Part shown: positions 1,844 to 53,391 of the stretch, in pieces
How the letters are laid out: every line of letters begins with the position of its first letter
How positions within the stretch are numbered: the stretch's first letter is position 1
Origin: Cymodocea nodosa
Taxonomy: Eukaryota > Streptophyta > Magnoliopsida > Alismatales > Cymodoceaceae
Assembly (NCBI GenBank): GCA_036874045.1
Contig: CM072339.1
Coordinates: forward strand, 3,851,501-3,915,500
DNA length: 64,000 bases
Direction of reading: 5' to 3'
The notes under the pieces: generated by a model
The model's database searches: none
What the model was told of the DNA's origin: nothing
Seen by the model: only the letters and a program-made list of their open reading frames with translations
Translations under genes and position numbers: made by a program

Positions 1844-3901
1844 TGTTTGGGTTTTCCCAGCACTACACTAGAAAAACTTGGATTTGTTACTTCTATTTTT
1901 ACTTAGTTAATTTATCTTTATGCCTATTCTTTCTTTTAGAAGTAAACAAACAACCTTTAATACAATTTAGATATTAATTCTAATTTGTACTTTAAATGCA
2001 AGTGCACAGTTTCTATTGTATTAGTGTACAAGTATAGGTCGATCCCAAAGGGAATTGCTGACGAATTTAAGAACTGTTTGATTGTTAACAATTCAAATTT
2101 ATATGCAATAAGCACTCCGTTGAATTACAGTTAACTCAACGAACAAAGTTCGTTGAGTTATGGATAACTCAACGGACTATCCTCGTGGACTTAAGTTAAC
2201 TCCACGAGCTTGTCTCTTCTTTATAATATTGCTATTTACAGAGAAATTCGGCCAACCATTGGGCGATTCCACAGCTTGTAAATAACATCAATTAAGCTTT
2301 TTAATGCTAGTTAACATTGGATTTATCATTAAGCAATACTAACATTCAGATGATTCAAACAGTAACCATTAAAATATTTAAGTCTTTTGTACGAACCAAT
2401 TTCAGTAAACTGTAAAATTAAAACTAACATAAAACAATCACAAAACTGATACAGATAACATTAATCACGATATAACACAAAGAATACAACACTCAAATAC
2501 AACATACAAACAAAGATAAATTGTTTTTGGTATTTTTGTTTTGATGTGAACATAGAAATGGGCGAAAGGTGAAATGTAAAGTAATCTCACTTGAGAGTAA
2601 ATACTTCCGACACTACTTGCAACGCGATTACACCATTGAAAATTAAACCACTTACAATTCTGTCTCCTCTCCCTATAGAATCGTGAGTCCAGAATTGCAA
2701 AATGATCTCCTCTTCAGCATACAGGCATCAACCCGAAGCCAAGGCTAAAAGCTTTACGATCTCCTGAAATATGAGTCGGCGCTTGGTGAAAATGACTTCC
2801 CTTCCCGCGACGCGATCACTCTTCACAATGGTTGTCAGGCACTGTGTTTGGCTTGGAATCAACCCGACATCAGGCAAGTATCCTCATAGACCTCCGATGG
2901 TTGGTGATTATGGTGGTGATGATGGTGATGATGATGGTTGGTGTGGTACTTCAGAGAATTGCAACACTCATCCTCCTCTGCACACACTGTCCGTCCATCG
3001 ATCACACACCGATCACACCTTCTTCTTTTTCTCTTCTTTTCTTTTATATTTCTTCAGTAGTAACTGCTTCTGCTTGAATGATCGGTTGGATTTCCTTCAT
3101 TCATATCAACGGCGATGATTTCTTTTCCCTATGCGATTGAATTCCTGCGTGATACGTGCAAACGTGGCTTTTCCTTCCAACTATCCTGTTTCTACAACCG
3201 CTATAGTGGTATATTAGAAAATATATAGTCCGTGGACTTACAGATAACTCAACGGACTTTCTTCGTTGATTTAATTATAAAACACGTGCATAAATTTAAC
3301 TATCTGATGCTCAGGTGCATTTCAGATACTTATAAACTTAACTATCCGATGCTCAGATGCATTTCGGATAGTTACAATTAACTCACCGATATATAACTTA
3401 AGTAAATCTACCAGATCTCGACACGTGTCAGCAGCAGTTTAATCATAAAATAACATTTCAGAGAGTTACAAGTCTAACTATCCGATGCTCAAATGCATTT
3501 TCGGATAGTTATAGATAACTCACTGAAAGTTCACTTAAGTCATTCATTCTAGTTTCGACACATGTACTTCAGGAAATAATAAAATATTCTCTCAAAACAT
3601 AACTATCTGATACATATTCGGTCTGTTAAACATAACTGTCTGAATTTGGTCGGTATGTTAAACATAACTGTCCGAAATATCAGAAAATTTGGATACTTAA
3701 GAATTTCACAGCCTGCAACTTACCGACAGTTCATAAATGTACTAAATTAACATTAATTCCCCAAAATTAAGCAGATTCTTCAATTAAAGCATATAACAGT
3801 GCAATTATAACATAATGGCTTAATTCTCATATGATAAGCTAAATATTGTGCAATTAACCATCATTTAACTGTTAATAATATGCAATTTTTCATTCTAAAC
3901 A
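1844..3901 (-). repeat. Element A 3' LTR
   Basis: Direct copy of 13792-15814. On the plus strand it runs from TGTTTGGGTTTTCC to TTTCATTCTAAACA, so on the element strand it starts TGTTTAGAATG and ends CCCAAACA, with TG...CA ends. It carries palindromes of two kinds: GTTGAGTTA/TAACTCAAC (2117-2210, 3228-3272) and AACTATCCGA/TCGGATAGTT (about 3300-3520). A GC-richer block near 2600-3180 is conserved in all LTR copies in the window. Confidence 0.95.
2117..2210. repeat. Palindromic GTTGAGTTA modules in the LTR
   Basis: Successive dyads: TTGAATTACAGTTAACTCAA, CGTTGAGTTA...TAACTCAACG, and CTCGTGGACTTAAG...CTCCACGAG. The same kind of module lies in every Athila LTR here and also in the internal regions before ORF-X and the F-box frame. 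Confidence 0.8.
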
Positions 3902-5656: not shown

Positions 5657-6796
5657 TTAAGAACAAGACTAAAAAGTAGAAACAAATGAAATAAATGTAT
5701 CAGTCCAAGCAAACTTTTTAGGCATAGTTCTTCTTGCTATTAATTCTATTTTAATGCAGTTCTTGTTCCTTCTTACTTTGTAAATATGTAATATATTATA
5801 AATTCCAAATATGAGTGTATTACCATTAATGATATGTAATGCAGAAAGGGATCCTTTTTGGTTCTAGGGTAATGTAGTAGTTTCTATTTCTACATCTATT
5901 TCAATATACTCCTCTTCCCACTTCCATTCATTTATGTCTTCCATAATCCATATTTGAAATTTCATCAGTTCATCCCACTATCTTATCAGACATAAAGTAA
6001 GATCATCTTCTTCATTATACCACATTCCTATTTGAATTTCATTAAATTCTACAGATGGTGGTTTAGCTATTTCACTCGGTACAGGTAAAATTTCTATATA
6101 ATCATCATAACTGTCTATGCTCACTATGTATAAATCAGATCCATATGCTAATGATATCTCTGTGACTAGATATATATATCCATCAAATATGACATGTGTT
6201 TGATTAATTAATGATTTCTGTCCTAGATATATTATAATGTTTTCATTCCAAGATCTGTTCAGAAAATTATACACACTTAAGCGTAAATCTTCACCCCAAT
6301 TTCCTGTAGGTCTCCAATAATATAATTTTTCAAGAATTGCAGAATTTTTATCAGAAAATATTAAAGTTGACCCATAATTTACAGTTGGTGCTTCAAATCT
6401 ATTAGGTCTTCCTATATTCCATTCTTCTCCTATTATAAGATTTCTTATCAAAATATCCAATAATAATAAACTTGCATACCTTGGTCTCGTCTTGTATATG
6501 ATTAATCCTTCATCTATCCCCATAATATGATTTATTCCTTCTAACGCATTGGGTGGAATTCTAGTAGTTTCTTCCATAGCCAGATATTCATGGGTATTTG
6601 AACTACGATTAAATGACCTCCATATGAATCCATCTTTAATCTTAGTCATTTTTGCAACTTGTAGTCCCTGAAAATATTTTTCTTCAATACAGTCTTTGAT
6701 TTCTTTTGATACACAACACAGCCTACACAGATCTTTAGTTGACAAGTTACTTAGTACTTCCCTTAGTGCATCCATTGGTAATTGCATCAATTCCAT
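5657..6796 (-). pseudogene. F-box/FBA-like protein frame carried by element A (broken)
   Basis: The start is the ATG at 6796, two codons after the intron-like acceptor. Residues 1-45 form an F-box: LPMDALREVLSNLSTKDLC followed by a CCVSKEI stretch, the usual core that binds SKP1 in SCF ubiquitin ligases. The rest resembles an F-box-associated domain: GLIIYK near residue 93, a run like NPIxxEEW, a central YIYLVTEISLAYGSDLYIVS strand pair, and FQIWIMEDINEW near residue 290. The span is 1,140 bases, the same as in B and C. This copy carries about three breaks. It is recognised from family features; the target-binding partner is unknown. The F-box is not a normal retrotransposon protein, so capture from the host is the simplest reading. 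Confidence 0.85.
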
Positions 6797-6865
6797 TTGT
6801 CGATTCTGTATAACACAAACAAAAATTTAGTAGAGACAAAAATTAACATAACTATTGTACACCCT

Positions 6866-6925
6866 CGTGGAGTTAAGGCATAACTCAACAGACTAAGTTC
6901 GTTGAGTTAAAAATGAACTCTACGA
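6866..6925. repeat. Palindromic module inside the intron-like segment
   Basis: CTCGTGGAGTTA...TAACTCAAC followed by GTTCGTTGAGTTA, about 60-120 bases before the acceptor. B has the same at 28067-28110. C, which lacks the segment, lacks this module too. Confidence 0.7.
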
Positions 6926-7139
6926 TACTATTAACTAAAAATAAAAAACATATATACATACAGATAGTTGCTTCAGATATGTTGCTTCATTCAGCTGCCC
7001 TCCTAGAAGAGGCATCAATTTCATTAACCGTTCTATTGACAGGATTAGATATAGCTTGTATTGGCAATTCTCTAGTAGGTCTAACTTCCATTGGTTCCTT
7101 CTGTCTAAGTGATATATTTCTATTCTGATTTTGAATTGC

Positions 7140-8327
7140 AACATTTCCAAATATAAATTCTAGATGATTGTTTACTTGTATTATCTTTTCTAATTTCTAT
7201 ATTCTAGCTCCTTGTTCAATTAATACTTCATAACTTATGTTTTTCTCATTTATATTTTCTCCTCCTTAGAAATTGTTGTTTCTCCAAGATAAATTCAAGT
7301 GATTTCTCCAATTAGGATTATAAGAATTTCCCAAGTTATCTCTCTGGTTTCTAGCATAAATAATATCTAAGTCATTTATGTTTGCATTCTTTTCTGCTAG
7401 CTTTTGATTTAATGATAACTCTTCTATTTTCTTTGTTAATTTATTTAATTTCACCTCCAGCATAGTATTGGAATCTATTTCATGCATTCCTCTTGGCAAT
7501 ATTCTTTTATTTGCAATAGCTTCAACCGAATTTTCCCACTGTGTAGTTCTTTTTGCAAAATTTTCTAAATATGCCCATGCTTCTTCACTACATAATTTTA
7601 AAAATCTATTTTGACAAGTAGATTCTAATAAAGATTTCATTGAAACATCTATGCCTTCATAAATTATACCTATTAATTGTGCTTTACTCATTGCATGATG
7701 TGGACATTGAGTCAGTAAATCTTTAAATCTTTCAAAATAGTTCCAGAATGATTCACCTTGTTTTTGGCTACACATTAATATTTCTTTTTTCTTTTTAATC
7801 GTTTGATGTGTTGGATAATATTTTTCCAGAAAAATAGAGCAAAATTTAGTCCATGTAGAAATTGAATCAGGCGACAGAGTATATAACCATCTTTTAGCTG
7901 TGTCTTTTAAAGAAAAAAGGATATATCTAAGTTTAATAGCATCTATACTCATGTTCAGCATTTTCATCATTTGACAAACTTCGTTAAATTCTCTAAGGAA
8001 ATAATAGGTATCCTCTATTTCTAATCCATGAAAATGTGGCAATTGACTAATGTAATTAGATTTCAGTTCAAACCTATCTCCCTCAAAGTTTGACAATCGA
8101 ATACATGAAGGTTCATCAATTAATTCAGGATACAGAATCTCTCCTAATGATTTTTCTACTAGAGCAGTCATCTCTACGTTCTCTTTTAAAGAAAGATTAG
8201 CTATACCCTAAAAAATTTCGTTAAAGTTCAGTTCAGAAAATTTTTCAGCACTCCTCTGCAATGAAAATTCCTAGGTAGGTGTTCTTACTAATCGTTTAGT
8301 GCTTAGAGAACAAGTCCATGTGCTCAT
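7140..8327 (-). pseudogene. Capsid-type gag frame, displaced downstream (broken)
   Basis: The main open part is 7266-8171; similarity runs from an ATG at 8327 to about 7140. It shows the retrotransposon gag signature: FELKSNYI, then LKDTAKRWLYTLSPDSISTW and FLEKYYPT, matching the A-K-x-W-L...SI-TW-x-x-F...F-L-x-K-Y-F-P pattern of Athila capsid proteins. Near the end, SYNPNWRNHLNLSWRN matches the YNPGWRNHPNFSW block that follows the zinc knuckle in ordinary Athila gag. The zinc knuckle itself is not here; it is in the 5' frame. The position, downstream of integrase and ORF-X, is highly unusual. This copy has a few breaks. Confidence 0.85.
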
Positions 8328-8356
8328 AAATAAATAGCAAAAGATTAATTACATAC

Positions 8357-8600
8357 CAGTCTGAAGCTTTCCATTCTATAAATATTTGTTGTCAGATGAA
8401 GTTGAATCAACTGCTTCTCCTTCCAGTTCCTCCAACGCCTTCTCCTTTTTAAAAGTGCTGGTAACTCGTAAATAACATTTTGTTTTATATATATACTGCG
8501 CATCCATAAAGTGAATAAATCTCGTTTCAAGAACGTGTCTTGCAACGTGCATCGTGATTCCTGTTTTTATGGGTACGTGTACCACTACTAATTTCAAATT
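8357..8600 (-). other. Leader/first-exon-like block before the F-box frame
   Basis: It lies between the palindrome cluster and the intron-like donor and is collinear with C 47996-48237 and B about 26330-26571. It contains a TATA-like box (8482-8496) and a short frame, MHVARHVLETRF...DNKYL, also readable in C; a second frame ends in MESFRL at the donor. Which, if any, is translated is unclear. Its arrangement resembles the 5' end of a separate transcription unit. Confidence 0.5.
8482..8496 (-). promoter_or_regulatory. TATA-like box of the putative F-box transcription unit
   Basis: Reads TATATATATAAAACA on the element strand, about 125 bases before the donor. C has the same at 48096-48109 and B a variant at 26429-26440. 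The position would place a start site about 30 bases downstream. Promoter activity is inferred. Confidence 0.45.
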
Positions 8601-8659
8601 TAGGTAACCGCTAAACCGACGAAGTTTCGTTCGTGGTTAGAAGAATAACTGTTCTGCTT

Positions 8660-8842
8660 AATCCACGAACTAACCTCGTTGAGTTACAGATTACTCAACG
8701 GAACACAGTCGGTTACTGTTGCTAACTCCACGGACTAACTTCGTTGAGTTACAGATAACTCAACGAAGTGACCTTATATTATATTACTGACCTCGTGGAG
8801 TTACAGTTAACTCAACGGACTTACTTCGTTGAGTTAACACTT
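8660..8842. repeat. Cluster of palindromic GTTGAGTTA/TAACTCAAC modules
   Basis: Three or more dyads of about 30 bases in a row, each with a TCGTTGAGTTA arm and a TAACTCAACGGA-type arm around a 3-6 base loop. It occupies the gap between ORF-X and the F-box leader. C has the same cluster at 47752-47935 and B at 26015-26270. Confidence 0.8.
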
Positions 8843-13791: not shown

Positions 13792-15814
13792 TGTTTGGGT
13801 TTTCCCAGCACTACACTAGAAAAACTTGGATTTGTTACTTCTGTTTTTACTTAGTTAATTTATCTTTATGCCTATTCTTTCTTTTAGAAGTAAACAAACA
13901 ACCTTTAATACAATTTAGATATTAATTCTAATTTGTACTTTAACTACAAGTGCATAGTGTCTATTGTATCAGTGTGCAAGTACAGGTCGATCCCATAGGG
14001 AATTACTAACGAATTTAAGAGCTATTTGATTGTTAACAATTCAAATTTATATGCAATAAGCACTCCGTTGAATTACAGTTAACTCAATGGACAAAGTTCG
14101 TTGAGTTATGGATAACTCAACGAACTATCCTCATGAACTTAAGTTAACTCCACGAGCCTGTCTATTCTTTATAATATTGCTATTTACTGAGGAATTCGGC
14201 CAACCATTGGGCGATTCCACAGATTGTAAATAACATCAATTAAGCTTTTTAATGCTAGTTAACATTGGATTTATCATTAAGCAATACTAACATTCAGATG
14301 ATTCAAACAGTAACCATTAAAATCTTTAAGTCTTTTGTACGAACCAATTTCAGTAAACTGTAAAATTAAAACTAATCTAAAACAATCACAAAACTGATAC
14401 AGATAACATTAATCACTATACAATACAAACAATATAACACTCAAATACAACATACAAACAAAGATAAATTGTTTTTGGTATTTTTGTTTTGATGTGAACA
14501 TGGAAATGGGCGAAAGGTGAAATGTAAAGTAATCTCACTTGACAGTAAATACTTCCGATACTACTTGCAACGCGATTACACCATTGAAAATTAAACCACT
14601 TACAATTCTGTCTCCTCTCCCTATAGAATCGCGAGTCCAGAATTGCAAGACGATCTCCTCTTCAGCATACAGGCATCAACCCGAAGCCAAGGCTAAAAGC
14701 TTTACGATCTCCTAAAATATGAGTCGGCGCTTGGTGAAAATGGCTTCCCTTCCTGCGATGCGATCACTCCTCATAATGGTTGTCAGACATTGTGTTTGGC
14801 TCGAAATCGACCCGACATCAGGCAAGTATCCTCACAGACCTTCGATGGTTGGTGATTATGGTGGTGATGATGGTGATGATGATGGTTGGTGTGGTACTTT
14901 AGAGAATTGCGACACTCACCTCCTCTACACACATTGTCCGTCTATCGATCACACACCGATCACACCTTCTTCTTTTTTTCTTCTTTTCTTTTATATTTTT
15001 TCAGTAGTAACTGCTTCTACTTGAATGATCGGTTGGATTTCCTTCATTAATATCAACAACGATGATTTCTTTTCCTTGCGCGATTGAATTCCTACGTGAT
15101 ACATGCAAACGTGGTTTTTCCTTCCAACTGTCCTATTTCTACAACCGCTACAGTGGCATATTAGAAAATATATAGTCCGTGGAGTTACAGATAACTCAAC
15201 GAACTTTCTTCGTTGATTTAACTATAAAGCACATGCATAAATTTAACTATCCGATGCTCAGATGCATTTCAGATAGTTACAATTAACTCACCGATACATA
15301 ACTTAAGTAAATCTACCAGATCTCGACACGTGTCAGCAGCAGTTTAATCATAAAATAACATTTCGGAGAGTTACAGGTCTAACTATCCGATGCTCAGATG
15401 CATTTTCGGATAGTTATAGATAACTCACCGAAAGTTCACTTAAGTCATTCATTCTAGTTTTGACACATAATAAAATATTCTCTCAAAACATAACTGTTCA
15501 GCAATTTAAACATAACTATCTGATACATATTCGGTCTGTTAAACATAAATGTCTGAATTTGGTCGGTATGTTAAACATAACTATCCGAAATATCAGAAAA
15601 TTCGGATACTTAAGAATTTCACAGCCTGCAACTTACCGATAGTTCATAAATGTACTAAATTAACATTAATTCCCCAAAATTAAGCAGATTCTTCAATTAA
15701 AGCATATAACAGTGCAATTATAACATAATGGCTTAATTCTCATATGATAAGCTAAATATTGTGCAATTAACCATAATTTAACCGTTAATAATATGCACTT
15801 TTTCATTCTAAACA
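13792..15814 (-). repeat. Element A 5' LTR
   Basis: Pair of 1844-3901, about 2.0 kb. On the element strand a TATA-like AATATAAAAG lies near 14988-14997, which would place the transcript start about 30 bases on, in the GC-richer block. A plus-strand frame inside (14719-15024) is antisense to the element and is discussed under findings. Confidence 0.95.
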
Positions 15815-22627: not shown

Positions 22628-22635
22628 AGTTTTTC

Positions 22636-22653
22636 TAACGCTGTTGCTAGGGA
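22636..22653 (+). promoter_or_regulatory. Primer binding site, tRNA-Asp type, element B
   Basis: A decayed form of TGGCGCCGTTGCCGGGGA, 8 bases after the LTR; the register and flanking AGTTTTNT are the same as in A, C and F. Confidence 0.7.
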
Positions 22654-22734
22654 TTGAGAAGCTAAACAACAATGAATGCTATTTTGTTTTAATATCAGAA
22701 GAAGTGTTGTGTGTTTTATTTTATAATTGAGAAT

Positions 22735-26571: not shown

Positions 26572-26615
26572 GTATGTAATTAATCTTCTACTACTTTACT
26601 TTATGTTAAGAGTTT

Positions 26616-27950
26616 GTGAGCACATGGACTCGTTCTCTTAGCACTAAACAATTAATAAGAACACCTACACAGGATTATTTAACACAGAGGCGTACTGAAA
26701 TATTTTCTAAATTGAACTTTAATGAAATCCTTAGGGGTGTAGCTAACCTTTCTTTAAAAGAGAACAAAGATATGGCTGCTCTAGTAGAAAAACCATTAGG
26801 GGAAATTCTGTATCTTGAATTAGTTGATGAACCTTCATGTATTCAATTGCCAAACTTTGAGGAAGATAGGTTTGAATTGAAATCTAATTATATTAGTTAA
26901 TTGCCATACTTTCATAGATTAGAAAGAGAAGATGTCTATTATTTCCTTAGAGAATTTAACAAAGTTTGTCAAATGATGAAAATGTCGAACATGAGTATTG
27001 ATGCTATTAAACTTAGATATATTCTTCTTGCTTTAAAAGATATAACTATGAGGTGGTTATATATTCTATTGCCTGATTCAATTTCTACATGGACTAAATT
27101 TTGCTCTATTTTTTTGGAAAAATATTATCCAACACATCAAACAATTAAAAAGAAAAAGGAAATATTAATGTGTAGCCAAAAACAAGAAGAATCATTTTGG
27201 AAATATTTTGAAAAATTTAAAGATTTACTGACTTAATGTCCACATCATGTAATGAGTAAAGCACAATTAATAGGTATAATTTATGAAGGCATAGATGTTT
27301 CAACTAAATATTTATTAGAATCTATTTGATAGAATAGATTTTTAAAATTGTGTAGTGAAGAAACATGGGCATACTTAGAAAACTTTGCAAAAAGAACTAC
27401 TCAATAGGAAAACTCGGCTGAAGCTATTACAGATAAAAGAATATTACCAATGAGAATGCATGAAATAGATTCAAGCACTATGCTTGAAGTTAAATTAACT
27501 GAGTTAACAAAGAAAATTGAAGAGTTATCATTAAATCAAAAACTAGTAGAAAAGAATGCAAATATTAATGACTTAGATATTATTTATGCTAGAAACTAGA
27601 AAGATAACCTTGGAAATTCTTATAACCCGAATTGGAGAGATCACCCGAACCTTTCTTGGAGAAATAACAATTTCCAAGGAAGAGAAAATATAAATGACAA
27701 AAATATAAGTTATGAAGCATTAATTGAACAAGGATCTAGAATAGAGAAGTTAGAAAAGATAATTAAACAATCGTCTAGATCATGTATTTGGAAATGCTGC
27801 TATTCAAAATCAAAATATGAATAGAAATATACCCCTTAGACAAAAGGAATCAATAGAAGTTAAACCTACTAGAGGATTGCCAATGCAAGCAGTACCTAAC
27901 CTTGTTAATAGAACTATTAATGAAATTGATACCTCCTATGAGAGGAAAAT
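26616..27950 (+). pseudogene. Capsid-type gag frame of element B, inside the intron-like segment (broken)
   Basis: Collinear with A 7140-8327. Open stretches show FELKSNYIS, VYYFLREFNKVCQMMKM, LPDSISTWTKFCSIFLEKYY and, later, SYNPNWRDHPNLSW-type sequence. The N-terminal part (STWTRSLSTKQLIRTPTQDY) starts about 45 bases after the donor. It belongs to the retrotransposon gag family; several breaks. Confidence 0.8.
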
Positions 27951-28066
27951 TAAATAAAGTAGTATGACTGAAGTAACTATGTATAATATAGTAAGTAGAA
28001 AAATATAAAAAGAAAAAAAAATGTAAGTTTAATTATAGTTAGTAGTATTATAGAGTTATTACTTAA

Positions 28067-28110
28067 CTCAACAAACTTAGTCCGTTGAGTTATGACCTAA
28101 CTCCACGAGG
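28067..28110. repeat. Palindromic module before the B acceptor
   Basis: TTAACTCAACAAAC followed by GTCCGTTGAGTTA and TAACTCCACGAGG, matching 6866-6925 in A. Confidence 0.7.
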
Positions 28111-28177
28111 GTATGTAAGTAGCTATGTTAATTTTATCTCTGCTAAATTTTGTTTATGTTATATAGAATCACAACAG

Positions 28178-34471: not shown

Positions 34472-34478
34472 AGTCTTC

Positions 34479-37562: not shown

Positions 37563-39771
37563 TGTTTAGAATGAAAAAGTGCATATTATTAACGGTTAAA
37601 TGATGGTTAATTGCATAATATTTAGCTTATCATATAAGAATTAAGTCATTATGTTATAATTGCATAGTTATATGCTTTAATTGAAGAATTTGCTTAATTT
37701 GGGGGAATTAATGTTAATTTAGTACATTTATGAACTGTCGGTAAGTTGTAGGCTGTGAAATTCTTAAGTATCCGAATTTTCTGATATTTCGGACAGTTAT
37801 GTTTAACATACCGAACAAATTTGGACAGTTATGTTTAACAGACCGAATATATATCGGATAGTTATGTTTAAATTGCCGAACAGTTATGTTTTGAGAGAAT
37901 ATTTTATTATTTCCTGAAGTACACATGTCGAAACCATAATGAATGACTTAAGTGAACTTTCGATGAGTTATCTATAACTATCCGAAATTACAGTTGGGCA
38001 TCGGATAGTTATCCTTGTAACTCTCCAAAATCTCTTTTTATTTATAAAATAGATGAGGACACGTGTCATGTTCTGGGAAAGTGACTTAAGTGGATTTTCG
38101 GTGAGTTAGTTGTAACTATTCGAAATGCATCTGAGCATCGGATAGTTAGACCTGTAACTCTCCGAAATGTTATTTTATGATTAAACTACTACTGACACGT
38201 GTTGAGATCTGATAGATTTACTTAAGTTATATATTGGTGAGTTATTTATAACTATCTGAAATGCACTTGAGCATTGGATAGTTAAGTTTATAAGTATCCG
38301 AAATACACCTGAGCATCGGATAGTTAAATTTATGCACGTGTTTTATAGTTAAATCAACGAAGAAAGTTTGTTAAGTTATCTGTAACTCCACAGACTATAT
38401 ATTTTCTAATATGCCACTGTAGCGGTTGTAGGAATAGACAGTTGGAAGAGAAAAACCACATTTGCATGTATCACGCAGGAATTCAATCGCGTAGGGAGAA
38501 GAAAGCATCGCTGTTGATATGAATGAAGGAAATACAACCGACCATTCAAGCAGAAGCAATTACTACTGAAGAAATATAAAAGAAAAGAAGAAAAAAAGAA
38601 GAAGTGTGTGTAATCGATGGGCAGACAATGTGTGTAGAGGACGATCGACATCGCAATTCTCTGAAGTACCACACCAACCATCATCATCACCATCACCACA
38701 CCATAATCACCAATCATCGGAGGTCTGTGAGGATACTTGCCTAATGTCAGGTCAATTCCGAGCCAAACACAGTGCCTGACAACCACTATGAGGAGTGATC
38801 GCGTCGCGGGAAGGGAAGCCATTTTCACCAACCGCCAACTCATATTTCAGGAGATCGTAAAGCTTTTAGCCTTGGCTTCGGGTTGATGCCTATATGCTGA
38901 AGAGGAGATCATCTTGCAATTCTAGACTCGCGATTCTATAGGGAGAGGAGACAGAATCGTAAGTGGTTTAATTTTCAATGGTGTAATCGCATTGCAAGTA
39001 GTGTCGGAAGTATTTACTGTCAAGTGAGATTACTCTACATTTCACCTGTCACCTATTTCCATGTTCATATTAAAACAAAAATACCAAGAACAATTTATCT
39101 ATGTTTGTATGTTGTATTTGAGTGTTGTATTGTTTGTGTTGTATCGTGATTAATGTTATCTTTGTCAGTGTTGTGATTGTTTTATGTTTATTTTAGTTTT
39201 ACAGTTTACTGAAATTGGTTCGTTCAAAAGACTTAAAGATTTCAATGGTTACTATTTAAATTATCTGAATGTTAGTATTGCTTAATGATAAATTCAATGT
39301 TAACTAACATTAAAGAGCTTAATTGATGTTATTTACAATCTATGGAGTCGCCCAATGGTTGTCTGAATTCCTCTGTAAATAGCAGTATTAAAAAGAAAAG
39401 ACAGTCTCATGGAGTTAACTTAAGTCCACGAGGTTAGTCCATTGAGTTATCCATTACTCAACGAACTTAGTCCATTGAGTTAGCTATAATTCAACGGAGA
39501 GCTTATTGAATATATAAATTTGATTTTTAATAAGCAAATAGTTCTCAAGTTCGTCAGCAATTCCCCATGGGATCGACTTGTACTTGCACATTGATACAAT
39601 AGACACTATGCACTTGCAGTTAAAGTACAAATTGGAATTAATATCTAAATTGTATTAAATGTTGTTTGTTTACTTCTAAAAAAAAGAATAGGAATAAAGA
39701 TAAATTAACTAAGTAAAAACAGAAGTAACAAATCCATGTTTTTCTAATGTAGTGCTGGGAAAACCCAAACA
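37563..39771 (+). repeat. Element C 5' LTR
   Basis: 2,209 bases, TGTTTAGAATG...AAACCCAAACA; its partner is 51180-53386 (2,207 bases). It carries several ACTATCCGAAAT...ATCGGATAGTTA dyads (about 37970-38330) and GTTGAGTTA modules (38350-38400, 39405-39500). Confidence 0.95.
38574..38582 (+). promoter_or_regulatory. TATA-like box of the LTR promoter
   Basis: AAATATAAAAGAAAAG precedes a GC-richer transcribed-looking block and is kept in all LTR copies here (for example 24493-24508 and 52185-52200). It is the best candidate for the start of the genomic RNA. Confidence 0.5.
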
Positions 39772-39796: not shown

Positions 39797-39885
39797 ATTG
39801 AATTGAATTGAATAGATATAAGCAACTGTTAGAGTTGTTTCATTTTAATAGCCAGAGTTGTGTGTTTTCTTCTGTAATTGAGAAT

Positions 39886-40660
39886 ATGGCATATGCTTAT
39901 GCTCAAAGATTTTTGAAACCTATAATTAGCATATGTGAATTCTGCAATTCTGAAGGACACGACATTTCTGATTGTTTGAAACTGAGACATTTACAGATAG
40001 TTAGATCCCATGAACAACAAATGAATTATCCTCAATATAATAGAGCCGAGTATGAGAATCCTATAGTTTACCTAACTGATGGTCAGTATAGAATGTGTAA
40101 TATGATGAGAGACAATGAAGTTTGGGATAGCTATGACAGATTGGAGCATAGTATAGAGCAAAATCTAGACAAACTGGAATACTTTATGTGTCAATAACAA
40201 GAAGTCAATCAATTAAACTATAAGGAATCATATTCAGAACCTAAACAGTATATAATTTACGAAACTGAAAAAAACATAAAGAAAATTGATCAAAAATTGA
40301 ATGCAATGAAATTAGATGATTTGGAAACAAAATTAAAAGCATTAGACGAAAATGCAATGAAAATACAAGTTATGCAACAGGACAATGAAAATTATAATGT
40401 TATAAACCTGCATAATTTGCAAAATATACAGCAAACAGAAAATACTAATGAAATAGAATTTAAAGAATGCACTTTAAAACTAAAAACAATTGAAGATCAT
40501 AATCACAAAAATGATATACAAAAACATCATGAAAGTAACGAAAATCTGGAAGATGTATGTGTAACATTAAGATCTAGAACTGATATACCACCAAGAACTC
40601 AAAATGAAAATGATATGAAGGTGAATAAGAGTAAAGATCAAAATGATAATGAAAATGTAA
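39886..40660 (+). pseudogene. 5' gag part with zinc knuckle, element C (broken)
   Basis: Starts MAYAYAQRFLKPIISICEFC 90 bases after the primer site; the knuckle CEFCNSEGHDISDC fits C-x2-C-x4-H-x4-C. It is followed by YDRLEHSIEQNLDKLEYF, MKLDDLETKLKALDE and a VTLRSRTDIPP block, the degenerate form of the Athila LRSG-PP motif. An upstream in-frame ATG at 39808 is possible, but the MAYAYAQ start is shared by all four copies. No capsid domain. Confidence 0.85.
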
Positions 40661-40699
40661 TAGCTGAAAATCTAGAAATCACTAAAGAACAATCTGAAT

Positions 40700-41560
40700 C
40701 TACGAATGAAGTTAAAAATGATCAAACAAATCAACTGAAAGAAAAAGAGTCTTTGAAATCAAAATCTTTAGCACTCTATCTTGAAAGATTACAACAAACA
40801 ATTCCTAAAAAACAAGAAAAAATCAGAGAAATTTTTGAAAAAGTACAAGTTAACATTCCTTTGTTAGATCTATTGCAGAAAATGCCACCTTGTGCTAAAT
40901 TTCTGAAGGATTGGTGTACTAAGAAAAGAGAGCGAAAAGTTCTTAGAAATGTCTTTTTAGCTGAGCAAAGTAGTTCCCTATTTCTGCCACAAATTCCTAA
41001 AAAGTTATCTGATCTTGGAATCCCTGCTATATCATGCACCATAGGAAATACCATTCTAGAAAGAACCTTAATAGACTTAGGTGCAAGTATAAATGTTATG
41101 TCAAGTGATATATTTGCATCCTTAGGATTAGAAGGCTTAATTCCTACTAATATGGTTATTCAATTAGTTGATAGAAGTATAAGATACCCTAAAGGAAAAA
41201 TAGAGGATGTCTTAATTAAAATCAAAAATTTTATATATCCTATTGATATTGTAATTTTGGATTCCCAACAAATTAAGCATAAAAATAGTGATACATCTTT
41301 AATTTTGGGAAGGCCATTTTTAGCAACATCAGGGGCTGTTATAAATTGTAAAACTGGAGTAATGAAGTTAGCATATGGTAATGAGGATACTCAATTAAAT
41401 ATTTTCAAACGAGAAAGGTTTGAGGAGTTAGAAATGTCCTTACATACCATAGACTTTTTAGAGGATGAAGGAGATATGTTAGATGATGTGATTCAAGAAG
41501 AATTAAATAGGCAAATCAATTCTGAAATTTTAAAAGAAAGTGAAAGCATAAATATAGAAG
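40700..41560 (+). pseudogene. Aspartic protease region, element C
   Basis: YLERLQQTIPKKQEKIREIF and VNIPLLDLLQKMPPCAKFLK lead into IPAISCTIGNTILERTLIDL and GASINVMSSDIF, then SLILGRPFLATSGAVI. This is the Athila protease with active-site D-L-G-A and the I-L-G-R-P-F-L block. In intact relatives it cleaves the gag-pol polyprotein. This segment reads open within 40297-42327. Confidence 0.9.
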
Positions 41561-41599
41561 GAGATCGAGAAGAAATTAATTTAAAAAATGATGATGTTC

Positions 41600-42620
41600 A
41601 ATTAGGAGCTCTAGCTTCTGATGGGCAGCATTTAGACTTAAAACCTTTACCTCCTGAATTAACCTATATATTTCTAGAAGATAAACGAACCTGTCCAATC
41701 ATTATTGCTTCAGATTTAAAAGAGGATCAAATAACTAAATTAAAAGATGTAGTAAAAAGTTATAAAAAAGCAATAAGATGGACTATGACTGATATAAAAG
41801 GGATAAGTTCAACTTTATGCTGTCACCACATATATTTAGAAGAGAATGCTAAACCTGTTAGAATTCCTGAGAGGAGATTAAATCCAAACCTTAAAGAAGT
41901 AGTCAGGAAGGAAATAGTTAAATGGCTAGATAATGATATAATTTATTCGATTTCTGATAGCTCGTGGGTTAGTCCAATCTATGTAGTTCCCAAGAAATCA
42001 GGATTAACAGTTATTAGGAATGAAAGTCAAGACTTGATACCTTCTAGAAATCAATCAGGCTGGAGAGTATGTATAGACTATAGGAAGCTGAATGCTGTGA
42101 CTAGGAAAGATCATTTTCCCTTACCTTTTATAGATCAAATGCTGGAAAGATTAGTAGGGCAAGAATATTTTTGTTTCCTAGACGGGTATTTAGGGTATAA
42201 TCAAATTCTAATAGCATTAGAGGATCAAGAGAAAACAACTTTCACCTATCCTAATGGAACTTATGCTTTTAAAAGAATGCCATTCGGATTATGCAATGCG
42301 CCAGCTACCTTTCAAATGTGTGTGTAGGACATATTTACTGGAATGACTGAAAATTTTTTAGAATTATTTATGGATGATTTTACTGTATATGGCAACTCAT
42401 ATGAAGTGTGTTTAAGCAATTTAGACCAAATATTAAAATGCTGTGTGGAAAAAAATCTGGTTTTAAATTGGGAAAAATGTCACTTCATGGTTAAACAAGG
42501 AATAGTCTTTGGGCATGTTGTTTCTAAAAAATGGTTGGAAGTAGATAAAGCTAAAATAGAAGTAATTTCTAATCTACCAGAACCTAAATCAGTAAAAGAT
42601 ATTAGATCATTTCTAGGACA
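41600..42620 (+). pseudogene. Reverse transcriptase, element C (broken)
   Basis: LPPELTYIFLEDKRTCPIII and WTMTDIKGISSTLCCHHIYL are characteristic Athila lead-ins; then VPKKSGLTVI, GWRVCIDYRKLNAVTRKDHF, FCFLDGYLGYNQI, RMPFGLCNAPATFQ and the catalytic FMDDFTVYG at about 42367. Family placement by these blocks is secure. Confidence 0.95.
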
Positions 42621-42739
42621 TGCTAGTTTTTATAGAAGATTTATTAAAGACTTTAGCAAGATAGCTAGACCTTTAACTAATCTATTAAAAGATGTTCCAT
42701 TTAACTTTGATAAAAATTACAAGGAAGCATTTTTCAGAC

Positions 42740-43233
42740 TTAAGACTAGCTTAATTTCAACTCCTATTATTCAAGCACCTGATTGGAACCATTCATTTGA
42801 GTTAATGTGCGATGCTTCTGATTTTGCTGTAGGAGCAGTGTTAGGACAAAAGATAGAAAAATCTCCCAGAGTGATTCATTATGCAAGCAAAACCTTAAAT
42901 GATGCTCAAGTTAATTACACAACTTCTGGAAAAGAATTATTAGCTGTTGTGTTTGCCTTAGAAAAGTTTAGATCATATCTGATTGGAGCTAAAGTAATAG
43001 TATGCATGGATCATTCAGCTCTAAAACATCTAATAAAGAAAAAAGAAACTAAACCTAGATTGATCCGATGGATATTATTATTGCAAGAATTTGATTTAGA
43101 AATTAAATATAAAAAAGGTTGTGAGAATGTAGTAGCAGATCATTTATCAAGATTACAAATAGAAAAATCAAATATTGAAATTAAGGATAAGTTTCCTGAT
43201 GAACAATTAATGACCATCAACACAATGCCTTAG
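42740..43233 (+). pseudogene. RNase H, element C
   Basis: [47 protein letters not shown] and VVADHLSRL give the D-E-D-D pattern of Ty3/gypsy RNase H. It removes the RNA strand during reverse transcription. The segment reads open. Confidence 0.9.
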
Positions 43234-43302
43234 TATGCAGACATAGTTAATTACTTAGTTATTGGTTTAACACCTAAGGATTGGAATAGATAGGATAAGA
43301 AA

Positions 43303-44531
43303 TTGTTTTTCTCAAGAGTAAAATATTACTATTGGGAAGACCCATACTTATTTAAGAAATGTTCTGATCTGGTTTTAAGGAGGTGTGTTCCAAAAATTGA
43401 ATATTTGAGTATATTGTCTTTCTGTCATGACCAAGCTTGTGGAGGGCATTTTGGTTTAGGGAAAACTACTACAAAAATTCTGCAATGTGGGTTTTATTGG
43501 CCAACACTATTCAAAGATGCTCATAAATATTGCTTAAGTTGTTTAAGATGTCAACAAATTGGAAGAATATCAAAGAGGAATATGATGCCTCTTAATCCTA
43601 TTATTGAGGTTGAAATTTTTGATGTGTGGGGAATAGATTTTATGGGTCCATTTCCTATGTCTAATCAATTTAATTACATATTGTTAGGGGTGGATTATGT
43701 ATCAAAATGGATAGAAGCTATTCCTACAAAAACTAATGACAACAAAGTGGTAATTCAATTTATAAGAACAAATATATTTGCCAGATTTGGAATACCTAAA
43801 GCTATTATCAATGATAGAGGAACTCATTTCTATAATAGAAGTTTTGAAGTCTTAATGAAGAAATATGGAGTAAACCACAAAATTGCAACATCATATCATC
43901 TGCAAACAAGTGGACAAGTAGAAAGTGCAAACAAACAAATTAAATTAATCTTGGAAAAAGTAGTAAATCCTACTAGAACAGATTGGGCTAATAGATTCAT
44001 AGATGCACTTTGGGCTTATAGAACTACTTATAAAACGAGCTTAGGTATGTCACCTTTTAGGCTAGTATATGGAAAAAGTTGTCATTTACCTGCTGAAATA
44101 GAACATAATGCTTATTGGGCATTAAAAACTCTGAACTCTAATTTAAATCAAGTTGCTAAAAATAGAAAAATGTAATTAATTGAATTAGAAGAATTTAGAA
44201 AAGAAGCTTATTCGAAAACTGTAAGAGAAAAAGAAAAAATTAAATTTTGGCATGATAGAAAAATTATTCCTAAAAGCTTTGAAATAAGACAAGAAGTATA
44301 TCTTTATATGGCTAGACTCCATAACCATCTAGGAAAATTGAAATCTAGATGGGTAGGACCTTACATAGTTCGAAATGTTTATCCTTATGGAGTTATTGAA
44401 ATTGAAAATCCTAAACTCAGAATATATTTAAAGTAAATGGACAAAGACTTAAACCTATTCTGAAAGCACCAAAAAGCTCCTTTGGAATTATAGAAGAAGT
44501 TAGAATAGAGGACTACTCGAGCTTTACTTAG
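43303..44531 (+). pseudogene. Integrase, element C (broken)
   Basis: The zinc-binding region HDQACGGHF...CLSCLRCQQIG (H-H-C-C) is followed by [35 protein letters not shown] and QTSGQVESANKQ for the D-D-E core, then [18 protein letters not shown] with the GPY block, and an end near IEDYSSFT. In intact relatives it inserts the cDNA into host DNA. Confidence 0.9.
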
Positions 44532-45101: not shown

Positions 45102-47327
45102 ATGAGGAAGATGATGCTTGAATTCTGGGAAGAGGTAGTGGACACCGCACAGTTTCTGAAGGAATTTGTAGAATGGCACACGAGACAGAAGATCAAAAAT
45201 ACAACAAGAGAGAAAGAGCTACAAAAGGTAGAATCAGAACTCTTTAACTTGAGAAAAATTTTGGTTGAATTAGAAATACAGATACCACAAATAATGGAGA
45301 CATGAATTAGAATGGCAACTGAAATTGCATTAAGTAAAGAAAGAAAGATACGACCAAACAATGAAGTAGCCCTAGAATTAATCCAACGTAAGTCTCGGCT
45401 CTAGTTCAAGAGATGAATCTGTAGACGAGCCAAATGGGTGATCTAGGAGCAAGAAAGGAAAGAAAATGAAGAAGAGGCAACTGAAGGACAAGAGGAGTCG
45501 ACTACTGAAAGACCTGTTCCTGAGGAGCAGCAGCTTGGACCTTCAGTTCCACCATTTAAGCCATTGGCACGAGTAGAAATGATGGGGCCTTCGACTGAAG
45601 AAGAGATAAGAGAATTTGTAGAACTGGTTCAAGTTGAGAAGAACCAAGGAGAATCAGAAGATTTGGTAGTGGCCAAAGCACACCTAGTGTTTGATGCACT
45701 TTACAAAAAGAGGGCTGTAGAAAAGTTGAAAGCCCAATATAAAATCAAATTGGAACAGCATCACAAAGCTATTGCCAGAACTGTTGCCAAACCTACTACA
45801 AAAGGAGATGAAGCTGGTCCTTCGAGACTAGTAATTATAGGAAAAGTTAAACAGGAAGAGCTAGTACCTGTGGCTCGAAGGACTGCAGAGCCTATTTTTG
45901 TAGATTTAATTTCAGAAGATGAAGAGGAAGAACAGACACAACTAATCAGAAAAAAGAAAGGAAAAGAAAAAGTGCTTGAATATGAGGAAATTAAATCTGA
46001 AGTACCAATTTTTACAGGGCCTGTGGAGCAGATTTTTATTAACCTGCTATCCGATTCTGAGGAGGAGCAGGAGGAGCAAAGAAAAGAAGAAAATCAGGCT
46101 GAAATTAGTTTGCAGCTTGTACAAGAAGAAACAGAAATTAGGGTAGAAACTGAATTGCCCGTGACTCCATCCCAATCTGTTACAGAATTAGAAAGAACAG
46201 TAACAGAACAGATTGGTAGTTAGGAGGAAAAAGAGAGAGCAGAAAATGAAGAGACTAAAAGAAGCCATTTGGACAAAAATAATTTCATAGATTCCATTGA
46301 AGAACAAGAAACTCTTCAGCAATTTATGGAGAGAATTCAAGACAAAGTGGAGAGTTCTGCCGGCTCAACACCACAAACAAAAACAGAAATTCAAGAATCT
46401 ATAGAAAATATTCAAATGCAGCCTATAGAAGAGGAAGAGCAAGAGCAAACCCCTCTGGAGCAACAAAGTCACCTTCCTAACCCAACTGAAACAATAATTT
46501 TGAATGAAGTACATTTTTGTAGTCAGGAAGCTTATACCAAATATCAAAAAATAAGGGGTTACGACATTATTTACAGTAGACCAATAAATTGGGATGGAAT
46601 GTAAGAAATCAAAGAATTATTTGAATTCCAAGGTCTACTGCAATTTATATATGAAGAAAGAGGGCATGTAGTATATGAGAATTTAGTACCCTATTTCTAT
46701 GCAAATTTGAGAGAAAGAGAAGGAGGATTAATTTCAAATGTGGAGGAAGTTGATGTACAGATAACACTAGAGCTTCTCCACAACATTTTTGGTTTAAAGA
46801 ATGAAGGAACAAAAATTTTGGAAGATACAACTGTAGTTGAATGGACTGAACAGCAAATTAAGGATTGTTTAGCTATCAATCCTGGTGTGCCATTATTAAA
46901 CAGATTGAAGCATTTAAATGGTAAAGCACACATGGTAGCTAACATTCTGATTAAGAATGTTTATCAACGATAGGGCAATGACATAGAATTAAGTCAATTT
47001 GTTAAATGGGCCACATATGCAGTTGTAAATAAGATCCAAATAAATTGGTCTATAGTTTTTATCTCTAAGCTGAAAACAGTGAAGAAGAAATTATTTTATG
47101 GAGATTTGATTCCACTGCTGATGGTGGACTATATCGATTTCACTAAATGGACATCAAAAAGGATCAGATCAAGAATCATTTCAGTGAAAGAATACAGAAA
47201 TTTTGTAGCTGTAGAACTAGTTGTACCTTCTGGAGGAATTATAGGAGTAGTAGAGAGGATTAATCAATTAGAGCTTCAATTAGAAAAACTCCAGAAGAAA
47301 GTAGATGAACTTAGGCATAGAGATTAA
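45102..47327 (+). pseudogene. ORF-X, element C: transposon-domain protein with SUMO-type motifs (broken)
   Basis: 2,226 bases from MRKMMLEFWEEVVDTAQF to a TAA at 47325-47327. Residues about 30-70 are coiled-coil-like. Residues about 263-277 read EPIFVDLISEDEEEE and about 306-322 EQIFINLLSDSEEEQEE: hydrophobic V/I-D/N-L-I/L cores followed by S and acidic residues, the classic SUMO-interacting form. VKQE (near 250) and IKSE (near 297) fit the sumoylation consensus. From about residue 468, FCSQEAYTKY...LVPYFYANLRE...LLHNIFGLKN...LNGKAHMVANILIKN fits the putative plant transposon protein domain. A heptad coiled coil INQLELQLEKLQKKVDEL closes the frame. No membrane segment, so an envelope role is not supported. 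A handful of breaks. Confidence 0.8.
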
Positions 47328-48061: not shown

Positions 48062-48237
48062 TGCAACGAGATTTATTCACTTTATGGATGCGCAGTATAT
48101 ATATAAAACAGAATGTTATTTACTAGTTACCAGTACTTTTAAAAGAAAGGAGAATGCTTTGGAGGAACTGGAAGGGGAAGCAACTGATTCAACTTCATCC
48201 GACAACAAATATTTATAGAATGGAAAGCTTCAGACTG
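48062..48237 (+). other. Leader/first-exon-like block, joined directly to the F-box frame
   Basis: Collinear with the A and B leaders up to ...AGCTTCAGACTG at 48237, after which the sequence continues with AATCGTCAAATGG, the first bases after the acceptor in A. The frame upstream of the F-box ATG is open across the join from 48154, so an N-terminal extension (MLWRNWKGKQ...) is possible. A TATA-like box TATATATATAAAAC is at 48096-48109. Confidence 0.65.
48096..48109 (+). promoter_or_regulatory. TATA-like box before the F-box frame
   Basis: TATATATATAAAAC, kept in A and in altered form in B. It suggests transcription of the F-box unit independent of the LTR; this is inferred from position only. 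Confidence 0.45.
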
Positions 48238-48246
48238 AATCGTCAA

Positions 48247-49386
48247 ATGGAATTGATGCAATTATCGTTGGATGCACTAAGGGAAGTACTAAGTAACTTG
48301 TCAGCTAAAGATCTGTGCAAGCTGTGTTGTGTATCAAAGGAAATTAAAGACTGTATTGAAGAAAAATATTTTCAAAGACTACAAGCTACAAAAATGACTA
48401 AGATTAGAGATGGATTCATATGGAGGTCATTTAATCGTAGTTCAAATACCCATGAATATCTGGCTACGGAAGAAACTACTGGAATTCCACCTAATGCATT
48501 AGAAGAAATAAATCATATTATGGGGATAGATGAAGGATTAATCATATACAAGACGAGACCAAGGTATGCAAGTTTATTATTACCTGATATTTTGATAAGA
48601 AATCCTATAACATGAGAAGAATGGAATATAGGAAGACCTAATAGATTTGAAGCACCAATTGTAAATTGTGGGTCAGCTTTAATATTTTCTGATAAAAATT
48701 CTGCAATTCCTGAAAAATTATATTATTGGAGACCTACAGGAAATTGGGGTGAAGATTTATGCTTAAGTGTGTATAATTTTCTGAACAAATCTTGGAATGA
48801 AAATATTATGATATATCTAGGACAGAAATCATTAATTAACCAAACACATGTCATACTTGATGGATATATATATCTAGTCACGGAGATATCATTAGCATAT
48901 GGATCTGATTTATACATAGTGAGCATAGATAGTTATGATGAATATATAGAAATTTTACCTATACCGAGTGAAATAGCTAAACCACCATCTACAGAATTTA
49001 ATGAAATTCAAATAGGAATGTGGTATAATGAAGAAGATGATTCTACTTTATGTTTGATAAGATGGTGGGATGAACTGATGAAATTTCAAATATGGATTAT
49101 GGAAGACATAAATGAATGGAAATGGGAAAAGGAGTATATTGAAATAGATGTAGAAATAGAAACTGCTACATTACTCTGGAACCAAAAAGGATCCCTTTTT
49201 GCATTACATATCATTAATGGTAATACACTTGTATTTGGAATTTATAATATATTACATGTTTACAAATTAAGAAGGAACAAGAATTGCATTAAAACAGAAT
49301 TAATAGCAAGAAGAACTATGCTTAAAAAGTTTGCTTGGACTGATACATTTATTCCATTTGTTTCTACTTTTCAATCATGTTCTTAA
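48247..49386 (+). pseudogene. F-box/FBA-like protein frame of element C (about one break)
   Basis: 1,140 bases (379 codons plus stop). The F-box spans residues 1-45: MELMQLSLDALREVLSNLSA, then KDLCKLCCVSKEI with the L-P/S-x-D-x-L...L-S...D-L...V-x-K pattern that binds SKP1-type adaptors. Residues about 90-379 fit an F-box-associated domain: GIDEGLIIYKTRPRY, GSALIFSDKNS, LYYWRPTGNW, YIYLVTEISLAYGSDLYIVS, FQIWIMEDINEWKWE and GSLFALHIINGNTLVFGIYN. Such proteins select targets for SCF ubiquitin ligases. This is the least decayed copy. The leader precedes it without the intron-like segment. The host gene it came from and its target are unknown. Confidence 0.88.
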
Positions 49387-51179: not shown

Positions 51180-53386
51180 TGTTTAGAATGAAAAAGTGCA
51201 TATTATTAACAGTTAAATGATGGCTAATTGTATAATATTTAGCTTATCATATAAGAATTAAGCCATTATATTATAATTGCACTGTTATATGCTTTAATTT
51301 AAGAATTTGCTTAATTTGGGGGAATTAATGTTAATTTAGTACATTTATGAACTATCGGTAAGTTGTAGGCTGTGAAATTCTTAAGTATCCAAATTTTCTG
51401 ATATTTCGGATAGTTATGTTTAACATACCGAACAAATTCGGACAGTATGTTTAACAGACCAAATATGTATAGATAGTTATGTTTAAATTGTCGAATAGTT
51501 ATGTTTTGAGAGAATATTTTATTATTTCTTGAAGTACACATGTCGAAACCATAATGAAGGACTTAAGTGAACTTTCGATGAGTTATCTATAACTATCCGA
51601 AATTGCAGCTGGGCATTGGATAGTTATCCCTGTAACTCTCCGAAATCTCTTTTTATTTATAAAATAGCTGAGGACACGTGTCATGTTCTGGGAAAGTGAC
51701 TTAAGTGGATTTTCAGTGGGTTAGCTGTAACTATCCAAAATGCATCTGAGCATCGAATAGTTACACTTGTAAATCTCCAAAATGTTATTTTATGATTAAA
51801 CTGCTGCTGACACGTGTTGAGATCTGGTAGATTTACTTAAGTTATATATCAGTGATTTATTTATAACTATCCGAAATGTACCTGAGCATCGGATAATTAA
51901 GTTTATAAGTATCCGAAATGTACCTGAGCATCAGATAGTTAAATTTATGCATGTGTTTTAAAGTTAAATCAACAAAGAAAGTCCGTTGAGTTATCTGTAA
52001 CTCCACGAACTATATATTTTCTAATATGCCACTTTAGCGGTTGTAGGAACAGACAGTTGGAAGAGAAAAACTACATTTGCACATATCACGCAGGAATTCA
52101 ATCGCGTAGGGAGAAGAAAGCATCGTCGTTGATATGAATGAAGGAAATACAACCGACCATTCAAGTAGAAGTAGTTACTACTAAAGAAATATAAAAGAAA
52201 AGAAGAAAAAAAGAAGAAGTGTGTGTGATCGATGAGCAGACAGTGTGTGCAGAGGAGGATCGGCGTCGCAATTCTCTGAAGTACCACACCAACCATCATC
52301 ATCACCATCACCACACCATAATCACCAACCATTAGAGGTCTGTGAGGATACTTGCCTGATGTCGGGTCGATTCAGAGCCAAACACAGTGCCTGACAACCA
52401 ATATGAGGAGTGATCGCATCGTAGGAAGGAAAGCCATTTTCACCAAGCGCCGACTCATATTTCAAGAGATCGTAAAGCTTTTAGCCTTGGCTTTGGGTTG
52501 ATGCCTGTATGCTGAAGAGGAGATCATCTTGCAATTCTGGACTCACGATTCTATAGGGAGAGGAGACATAATTGTAAGTGGTTTAATTTTCAGTGGTGTA
52601 ATCGCGTTGCAAGTAGTGTCGGAAGTATTTACTATCAAGTGAGATTACTTTACATTTCACCTGTCGCCCATTTCCATGTTCATATTAAAACAAAAATACC
52701 AAAAACAATTTATCTATGTTTGTATGTTGTATTTGATTGTTGTATTGTTTGTGTTGTATCGTGATTAATGTTATCTTTGTTAGTGTTGTGATTGTTTTAT
52801 GTTTATTTTAGTTTTACAATTTACTGAAATTGGTTCATTCAAAAGACTTAAAGATTTTAATGGTTACTGTTTGACTTATCTGAATGTTAGTATTGCTTAA
52901 TGATAAATTCAATGTTAACTAACATTAAAGAGCTTAATTGATGTTATTTACAATTTGTGGAATTGCCTAATGGTTGTCCGAATTCCTTTGTAAATAGCAG
53001 TATTAAAAAGAAAAGATAGGCTCGTGGAGTTAACTTAAGTCCACGAGGTTAGTCCGTTGAGTTATCCATAACTCAATGAACTTAGTCCGTTGAGTTAGAT
53101 GTAATTCAACGGAGAGCTTATTGAATATATAAATTTGATTTTTAACAACCAAACAGTTCTCAAGTTCGTCAGCAATTTCTTGTGGGATCGACCTGTACTT
53201 GCACACTGATACAATAGACATTGTACACTTGCAGTTAAAGTACAAATTGGAATTAATATCTAAATTGTATTAAAGGTTGTTTGTTTACTTCTAAAAGAAA
53301 GAATAGGCATAAAGTTAAATTAACTAAGTAAAAATAGAAGTAACAAATCCAAGTTTTTCTAGTGTAGTACTGGGAAAACCCAAACA
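51180..53386 (+). repeat. Element C 3' LTR
   Basis: 2,207 bases, partner of 37563-39771; most differences between the two are C/T or G/A, as expected for methylated repeats. Confidence 0.95.
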
Positions 53387-53391
53387 GCATA

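Follow-up and report, generated by a model that had tools for sequence, protein, structure and literature searches.

Gag behind pol inside a GT...AG segment, and its exact absence from other copies, in an LTR retrotransposon family of Cymodocea nodosa

Ogre elements, plant Ty3/gypsy retrotransposons of the Tat lineage, have an intron that separates gag-pro from pol and is only partially spliced (PMC6317226), and their primer binding site (PBS) corresponds to tRNA-Arg (PMC9289625). In barley, splicing regulates the Gag output of BARE1, and its Gag packages the gag-less BARE2, which lost its gag start codon through an 8-bp deletion; spliced RNA was argued not to be replicated (PMC3735527). Diaspora and Calypso have a tRNA-Asp PBS, and the loss of env from Diaspora has been proposed to result from the packaging of anomalously spliced RNA (PMC1142308). 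Recombination occurs among Athila elements, some of which are non-autonomous and carry gag (PMC2410132). In Bagy2, as for retroviral env, splicing produces the message of a gene that lies 3' of pol (PMC7264820). Here we describe a family of long terminal repeat (LTR) retrotransposons in Cymodocea nodosa, represented by three related elements (A, B and C) in a 64,000-nucleotide stretch of its genome (the window; C7:3851501-3915500 of a 374.6-Mb, 28-contig assembly), in which gag lies behind pol within a GT...AG segment that other copies lack to the base.

The family resembles Ogre in being a plant Ty3/gypsy group with an apparent spliceosomal intron, which in Ogre is removed from part of the transcripts (PMC6317226). 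Unlike the Ogre intron, however, the one described here holds gag and lies behind pol, its splicing would swap one protein for another, and the PBS is of the tRNA-Asp rather than the tRNA-Arg type. Like BARE1 and BARE2, the family combines predicted Gag-linked splicing with gag-less forms, with packaging in trans presumed here, although in this family spliced genomes have evidently been replicated. A tRNA-Asp PBS and long LTRs are shared with Athila, Calypso and Diaspora, and an extra open reading frame (ORF) after pol with Athila and Calypso (PMC1142308). Whereas env loss in Diaspora was inferred for one family, here it is gag that is lost, both states coexist and the joins are exact. In contrast to Bagy2 and retroviral env, the choice would be between Gag and an F-box protein, made from a leader behind pol.

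Neither gag behind pol nor a Gag/F-box choice is described in the compared passages on Ogre, BARE, Diaspora, Athila and Bagy2. Among the titles and abstract openings searched, none concerned an F-box gene in an LTR element or gag behind pol, a search that does not in itself prove novelty. A 2019 survey of plant LTR elements sorted Ty3/gypsy by the order GAG-PROT-RT-RH-INT and, in the passages considered, removed elements judged to be wrongly predicted, apparently including those of odd order (PMC6317226); a capsid gene behind pol and under splicing control could be missed under that scheme. An old proposal holds that reverse transcription of spliced genomes is a way for retroelements to lose genes (PMC1142308), and this family makes it testable: both kinds of copy are present in a single genome, and LTRs allow several of them to be dated. 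Within one element, a single donor apparently selects either a coat protein or an F-box protein.

The segment, the gag within it and the copies that lack it

Self-comparison and ORFs place A on the minus strand and B and C on the plus strand of the window; B is interrupted and older. Alignment of the three elements delimits the segment and its flanks as follows.

6806..8356, minus strand: segment of A that is absent from C; GT...AG, 1551 nt
26572..28166, plus strand: segment of B that is absent from C; 1595 nt, ending TATATAG, with the proximal acceptor AG ending at 26687
8357..8460, minus strand: shared first exon of A, with a predicted start, its ATG at 8374 and MESFRL at its end (CAGACTG)
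5978..6805, minus strand: first open part of the F-box exon of A (PF00646)
48220..48237, plus strand: coding part (MESFRL) of the shared exon of C, ending at the join
48238..49386, plus strand: F-box exon of C, fused directly to the shared exon, with one in-frame stop
7266..8255, minus strand: gag region of A, a frame running from the proximal acceptor through Retrotrans_gag (PF03732), with one TAG in A's extension

In A, the exon ends at 8357 (CAGACTG), the GT occupies 8356-8355, the AG occupies 6807-6806 and the F-box exon begins at 6805. In C, CAGACTG continues directly into AATCG at 48237/48238. Exon and intron both end in G, which lets the cut slide by one base, and we used the canonical GT-AG placement. 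The segment thus has the canonical ends of a GT-AG intron and is exactly absent from copies that we read as RNA-derived, and no target duplication was seen around it in the alignment of A, B and C. Perfect 5-bp target-site duplications (TSDs) flank A (CATCC) and C (GCATA) on both sides, and the two LTRs differ by a Kimura two-parameter distance of 0.047 in A and 0.071 in C.

The segment encodes Gag. Retrotrans_gag (PF03732) was matched at 1.4e-19 in A and at 3.9e-16 in L031, a copy elsewhere in the genome whose gag frame extends for 385 aa from the near (proximal) acceptor. The usual place of gag, between the LTR and the nucleocapsid (NC) zinc knuckle, is empty: the gap there is about 25-35 nt in nine copies (C, A, m0, m1, m3, m5, m7, L059 and L061; m8 was left out of this count since its LTR match stops early), and gag instead stands behind pol. 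Likewise, no capsid domain was found ahead of the NC-to-integrase frames of C (39802..44175).

We compared nonsynonymous and synonymous change (dN/dS) between groups of copies, near, mid and far, named from the F-box tree. Since the same neutral decay underlies all of these figures, we give net values and set them beside those of shifted frames. For gag, net dN/dS was 0.099 between 10 near and 13 far rows (shifted frames 1.09 and 1.63) and 0.176 between the near and 4 mid rows (0.31 and 1.88). These values, low relative to the shifted frames, therefore indicate that gag is under strong purifying selection. Individual frames are mostly decayed: over 302 codons aligned on A, the last of which is the stop of A itself, only one of 30 rows is free of stops, another has a single stop and 28 have at least two, and the gag frame of B is broken.

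Copies with and without the segment are both present elsewhere in the genome. A pattern for the far acceptor, searched with up to 2 mismatches allowed, gave 2783 matches in the assembly (1411 + 1372) against 1 for the reversed control. We sampled the first 30 of 100 listed acceptor places, all on one contig and comprising the first zero-mismatch acceptors on C1. All 30 of the fetched stretches match the intron and all 30 match the F-box exon at least partly, the intron match being short in L021, with interruptions in L017 and L030; the stretches begin 1.5 kb upstream of the acceptor, so few extend to the donor. A 301-bp query across the junction of C was unbroken from 1 to 301 in all of the best 40 of 5301 first-look candidates, C included. 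These 40 are ranked by likeness to C, the criterion by which intron-minus copies were chosen, and they give no relative number of such copies.

The join is identical and non-ragged in all 14 of the intron-minus copies inspected among these 40. Eleven were examined for TSDs, and each of the seven with both ends readable (C, m0, m1, m3, m4, m5 and m7) has a perfect 5-bp duplication; m2 is ambiguous and m6, m8 and m9 are unreadable. These copies are separate insertions. The LTR distances of m0, m1, m3 and m5 lie between 0.047 and 0.057. Matches of at least 150 nt to the segment are absent from all 10 intron-minus copies that were fetched, while integrase is present in 8 of the 10 and the full set of NC, protease (PR), reverse transcriptase (RT), RNase H (RH) and integrase (INT) probes matches in 6. 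As in BARE2, then, gag is absent, the LTRs are kept and insertions are found at many sites.

These results bear out most of what an initial annotation of this DNA had claimed. It described a GT...AG segment of about 1.55-1.6 kb in A and B and its precise absence from C, which alignment and coordinates confirm to the base; the GCATA duplications and own LTRs that it ascribed to C are there on both sides; and the intron-plus and intron-minus genomes that it supposed to coexist in one family are found as A/B-type and C-type copies. It had also named ragged boundaries in intron-minus copies as evidence that would tell against its reading, and the joins in the 14 copies are base-exact.

For intron-plus copies, we viewed pol upstream of the segment in six copies, in 2.4-kb stretches, and in A and B. 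One of the six, L022, matches the RT, RH and INT probes fully, and the remaining five have probe parts or none, on the same strand. We considered a clean two-part system of gag-only and pol-only elements and rejected it on this evidence.

One donor, two predicted acceptors and an F-box gene

The segment is not a plain intron, given that it encodes Gag and offers a choice of acceptors. In addition to the far acceptor at its end, it contains a near acceptor, 101 nt past the shared donor, where CATTGCAG is followed by AGG (8256/8255 in A).

8256..8356, minus strand: proximal intron of A (101 nt), which runs from the shared donor as far as the acceptor for gag (CATTGCAG, then AGG); the same splice is fixed in L065
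8483..8495, minus strand: TATA-like box of A (TATATATATAAAA), upstream of the shared exon; a putative internal promoter

Near splicing is predicted to continue the shared exon (MESFRL) in frame into gag, whereas after far splicing the reading would be MESFRLNRQMEL, leading into the F-box frame. Between the near acceptor and the ATG of gag, this frame has 7 stops in 781 codons (28 rows), compared with 89 and 132 in 754 codons each for the shifted frames, and the 60 nt ahead of the acceptor have 24 stops in 454 codons of the same frame. The YAG of the acceptor is kept in 24 of the 27 rows with letters there.

We wrote the predicted exon1-gag join as a pattern before searching the genome, allowing up to 2 mismatches. 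There was one genomic match, with 0 mismatches in 25, and controls gave 0. The matching copy, L065, lacks exactly the short intron in alignment and retains the far acceptor and the start of the F-box frame. We regard L065 as the best evidence both for use of the predicted splice and for the copying of spliced genomes back into DNA. One donor thus appears to serve two products, Gag or the F-box protein. L065, the only copy found with the gag-type splice, also has a separate large internal deletion in gag.

The F-box domain of A scores 40.1 bits against a PF00646 cut-off of 20.5. Its frame has 350 stops in 15737 codons across the rows, compared with 1830 in 15683 and 2099 in 15680 for the other two frames. 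When the F-box piece was searched against a protein database, no match was returned at E 1e-3 (384 candidates), and the one F-box match in the Protein Data Bank was not significant (E 0.91). Long open F-box frames of 386-448 aa, stop to stop, occur in L022, L034, L005 and L042. The two that were scanned, L005 and L042, have weak similarity to the F-box-associated domain FBA_1, below its cut-off (15.1 versus 21.1 in L042).

For the TATA-like box ahead of the shared exon, TATATATAT is present in 14 of 14 intron-minus copies and TATATATATA in 13 of 14, m7 being the one without it. A short motif of A, AACTCAACGAAG...TCCGTTGAGTTA...CTCCACGAGG, recurs in the leader (8650-8840) and ahead of the far acceptor (6860-6930), and it has weak matches in the LTR.

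Single or repeated loss, and the competing explanations

We asked whether the intron-minus state arose once. The F-box tree comprised 42 sequences (14 intron-minus and 28 intron-plus), four of the 32 intron-plus rows having been dropped for offering less than 700 nt or no match. A single intron-minus clade is rejected on this tree by the approximately unbiased test (p-AU 1e-54); the state needs 7 changes, of which well-supported branches force at least 4. When the F-box alignment was divided into thirds (29 rows, 14 minus and 15 plus), a single clade had p values of 0.031, 0.0003 and 0.002, and on the integrase tree (13 rows, 9 minus and 4 plus) it had p 0.006. In addition, m8 has a base common only to the intron-plus copies L009 and L033, 85 columns past the join. 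L008 and m5 carry bases common to intron-plus copies at columns 79 and 76; the same bases occur in L038 and L010, so these two cases may reflect older states that were retained, and they weigh less than that of m8. Loss through reverse transcription of spliced RNA was probably recurrent, which is the simplest reading of these trees.

Taken together, we think it likely that this is a high-copy Athila-type element with Gag behind pol, in which one donor chooses between Gag and the F-box protein and far-spliced genomes give rise to gag-less copies. A leader with the TATA-like box would drive an exon that holds the start codon and one donor with two acceptors; splicing to the near acceptor would yield Gag, and splicing to the far acceptor the F-box protein. 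Because the unit stands in the sense orientation, full-length genomic RNA started in the LTR would be spliceable in the same way. Reverse transcription of a far-spliced genome would then fix gag-less, mostly pol-bearing, intron-minus copies such as C. Since far splicing removes Gag and keeps pol and the F-box gene, such genomes would need Gag from others, and we infer that they are packaged by Gag made from other copies. A fuller reading strikes us as evenly balanced: that the family relocated its capsid gene to an internal transcription unit behind pol, that a single exon with the start codon is joined there to either Gag or the F-box protein, perhaps an anti-silencing factor, and that genomic RNAs of both splice forms are replicated, so that the family continually splits into mutually dependent gag-bearing and gag-less genomes.

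Several results weigh against this reading. Over columns 1-400 and 801-1186 of the F-box alignment, supported branches force only one change, and the middle third is alone in forcing more. Good support is absent from every branch of the integrase tree, and a single clade is not rejected with RT-RH-INT (p 0.126; 11 rows, 2 of them intron-plus). The three rows without YAG at the near acceptor include L022, the sole intron-plus copy viewed with full RT, RH and INT probes, and its gag frame is broken; no copy among those viewed has gag and pol frames both open. The 28-codon stretch from the acceptor to the gag ATG has a pN/pS of 0.62, no lower than those of the shifted frames (0.46, 0.93), and the case for that stretch therefore rests on its missing stops. 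The near-splice join is present in only one copy found, L065, with its internally deleted gag. Finally, the net dN/dS of the F-box frame was 0.403 (shifted 0.58 and 1.06) and 0.533 (0.48 and 0.78), not clearly below neutral, so that selection on it appears weak or is not resolved by this measure.

The tree results could also arise if a single intron-minus founder, itself derived by splicing, was amplified and template switching with intron-plus copies then scattered its state. Recombination is described as frequent among Arabidopsis Athila elements in the part of PMC2410132 considered, many of the sampled intron-minus copies cluster closely on the F-box tree, and RT-RH-INT is compatible with one clade. 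We nevertheless hold this to be unlikely, because both the F-box (p-AU 1e-54) and the integrase (p 0.006) trees reject a single clade and m8 would need a crossover inside the 85 columns past the join. On this question, which the initial annotation had posed, losses look repeated on the F-box trees and the evidence is weaker on integrase and RT-RH-INT. Its proposal that C came from reverse transcription of a spliced RNA is the best reading, given the identical joins, the GT-AG ends, the TSDs and the second splice product, although it was incomplete, as the segment codes for Gag and has two acceptors.

Two other explanations concern the segment itself. The intron might be passive, its gag a stranded relic or passenger, with Gag supplied by other families. 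The many broken gag frames (28 of 30 rows with at least two stops, and B's as well) would fit this. Against it stand the net dN/dS of gag between subfamilies (0.10-0.18), a frame that is open up to the splice acceptor and the 385-aa frame that begins at the acceptor in L031, and we consider passivity improbable. Less credible still, to the point of being hardly tenable, is that the C-like state is ancestral and the gag segment was precisely inserted, or that ordinary DNA deletion removed it. Although direction is unreadable from the unrooted tree alone, the ends are exactly GT-AG, the same base-exact join recurs in 14 of 14 copies across several tree positions, no target duplication was seen around the segment, and a second precise removal has occurred from the same donor.

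Lineage and the surrounding elements

The remaining features of A and C that bear on lineage are listed below.

13792..15814, minus strand: 5' LTR of A; TSD CATCC, with the tRNA-Asp-type PBS after it
1844..3901, minus strand: 3' LTR of A, from the repeat table and the TSD reading
37563..39771, plus strand: 5' LTR of C; TSD GCATA
51180..53386, plus strand: 3' LTR of C, from the repeat table and the TSD reading
39802..44175, plus strand: zinc-knuckle (NC), protease-like, RT, RNase H and integrase frames of C, with breaks
46605..47327, plus strand: Transposase_32-like ORF of C, assigned through the homologous ORF of A, which was the one scanned

The PBS agrees with the tRNA-Asp complement at 17 of 18 positions in A and 16 of 18 in C. 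At the spot tried for B it agrees at 7 of 18, although the LTR ahead of that spot is a solo one and not the 5' LTR of B itself. The zinc knuckle of C was identified by eye, its protease-like match scores 20.4 bits, below the Pfam cut-off of 24.3, and the ORF of A homologous to 46605..47327 matches PF20167 at E 1e-4, also below the cut-off. The PBS and this sub-threshold PF20167 match point to an Athila-type lineage. As in Athila, the order is PR-RT-RH-INT (seen in C and six of the 10 copies fetched) and an extra ORF follows pol, but GAG does not come first, as it does in GAG-PROT-RT-RH-INT. A relation to Ogre, with the intron at a different position, had been suggested for this locus; the position does differ, the intron lying behind integrase rather than between gag-pro and rt-rh-int, whereas the tRNA-Asp PBS points to Athila and not to Ogre.

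A solo LTR of the same family (23621-25646, TSD ATGAT) sits inside copy B and adjoins its leader. We had taken B to begin at the LTR at 23621 and dropped that placement, as this LTR is the solo insertion; the repeat table puts B's own 5' LTR at about 20643-22608. The regions 30995-35414 and 20643-23561 hold LTR plus NC segments, which comprise what is likely B's own LTR pair, 87% alike, and the 5' portion of another related element that starts near 32509.

Outside the family, an unrelated element with Copia-like frames for gag, integrase and RT was recognized by eye at 53359-56766 on the minus strand. Pieces also lie at 37047-37445 and at 36541-36758 and 57279-57496, the last two being 94% alike, and local direct repeats about 66-75% alike occupy 136-788.
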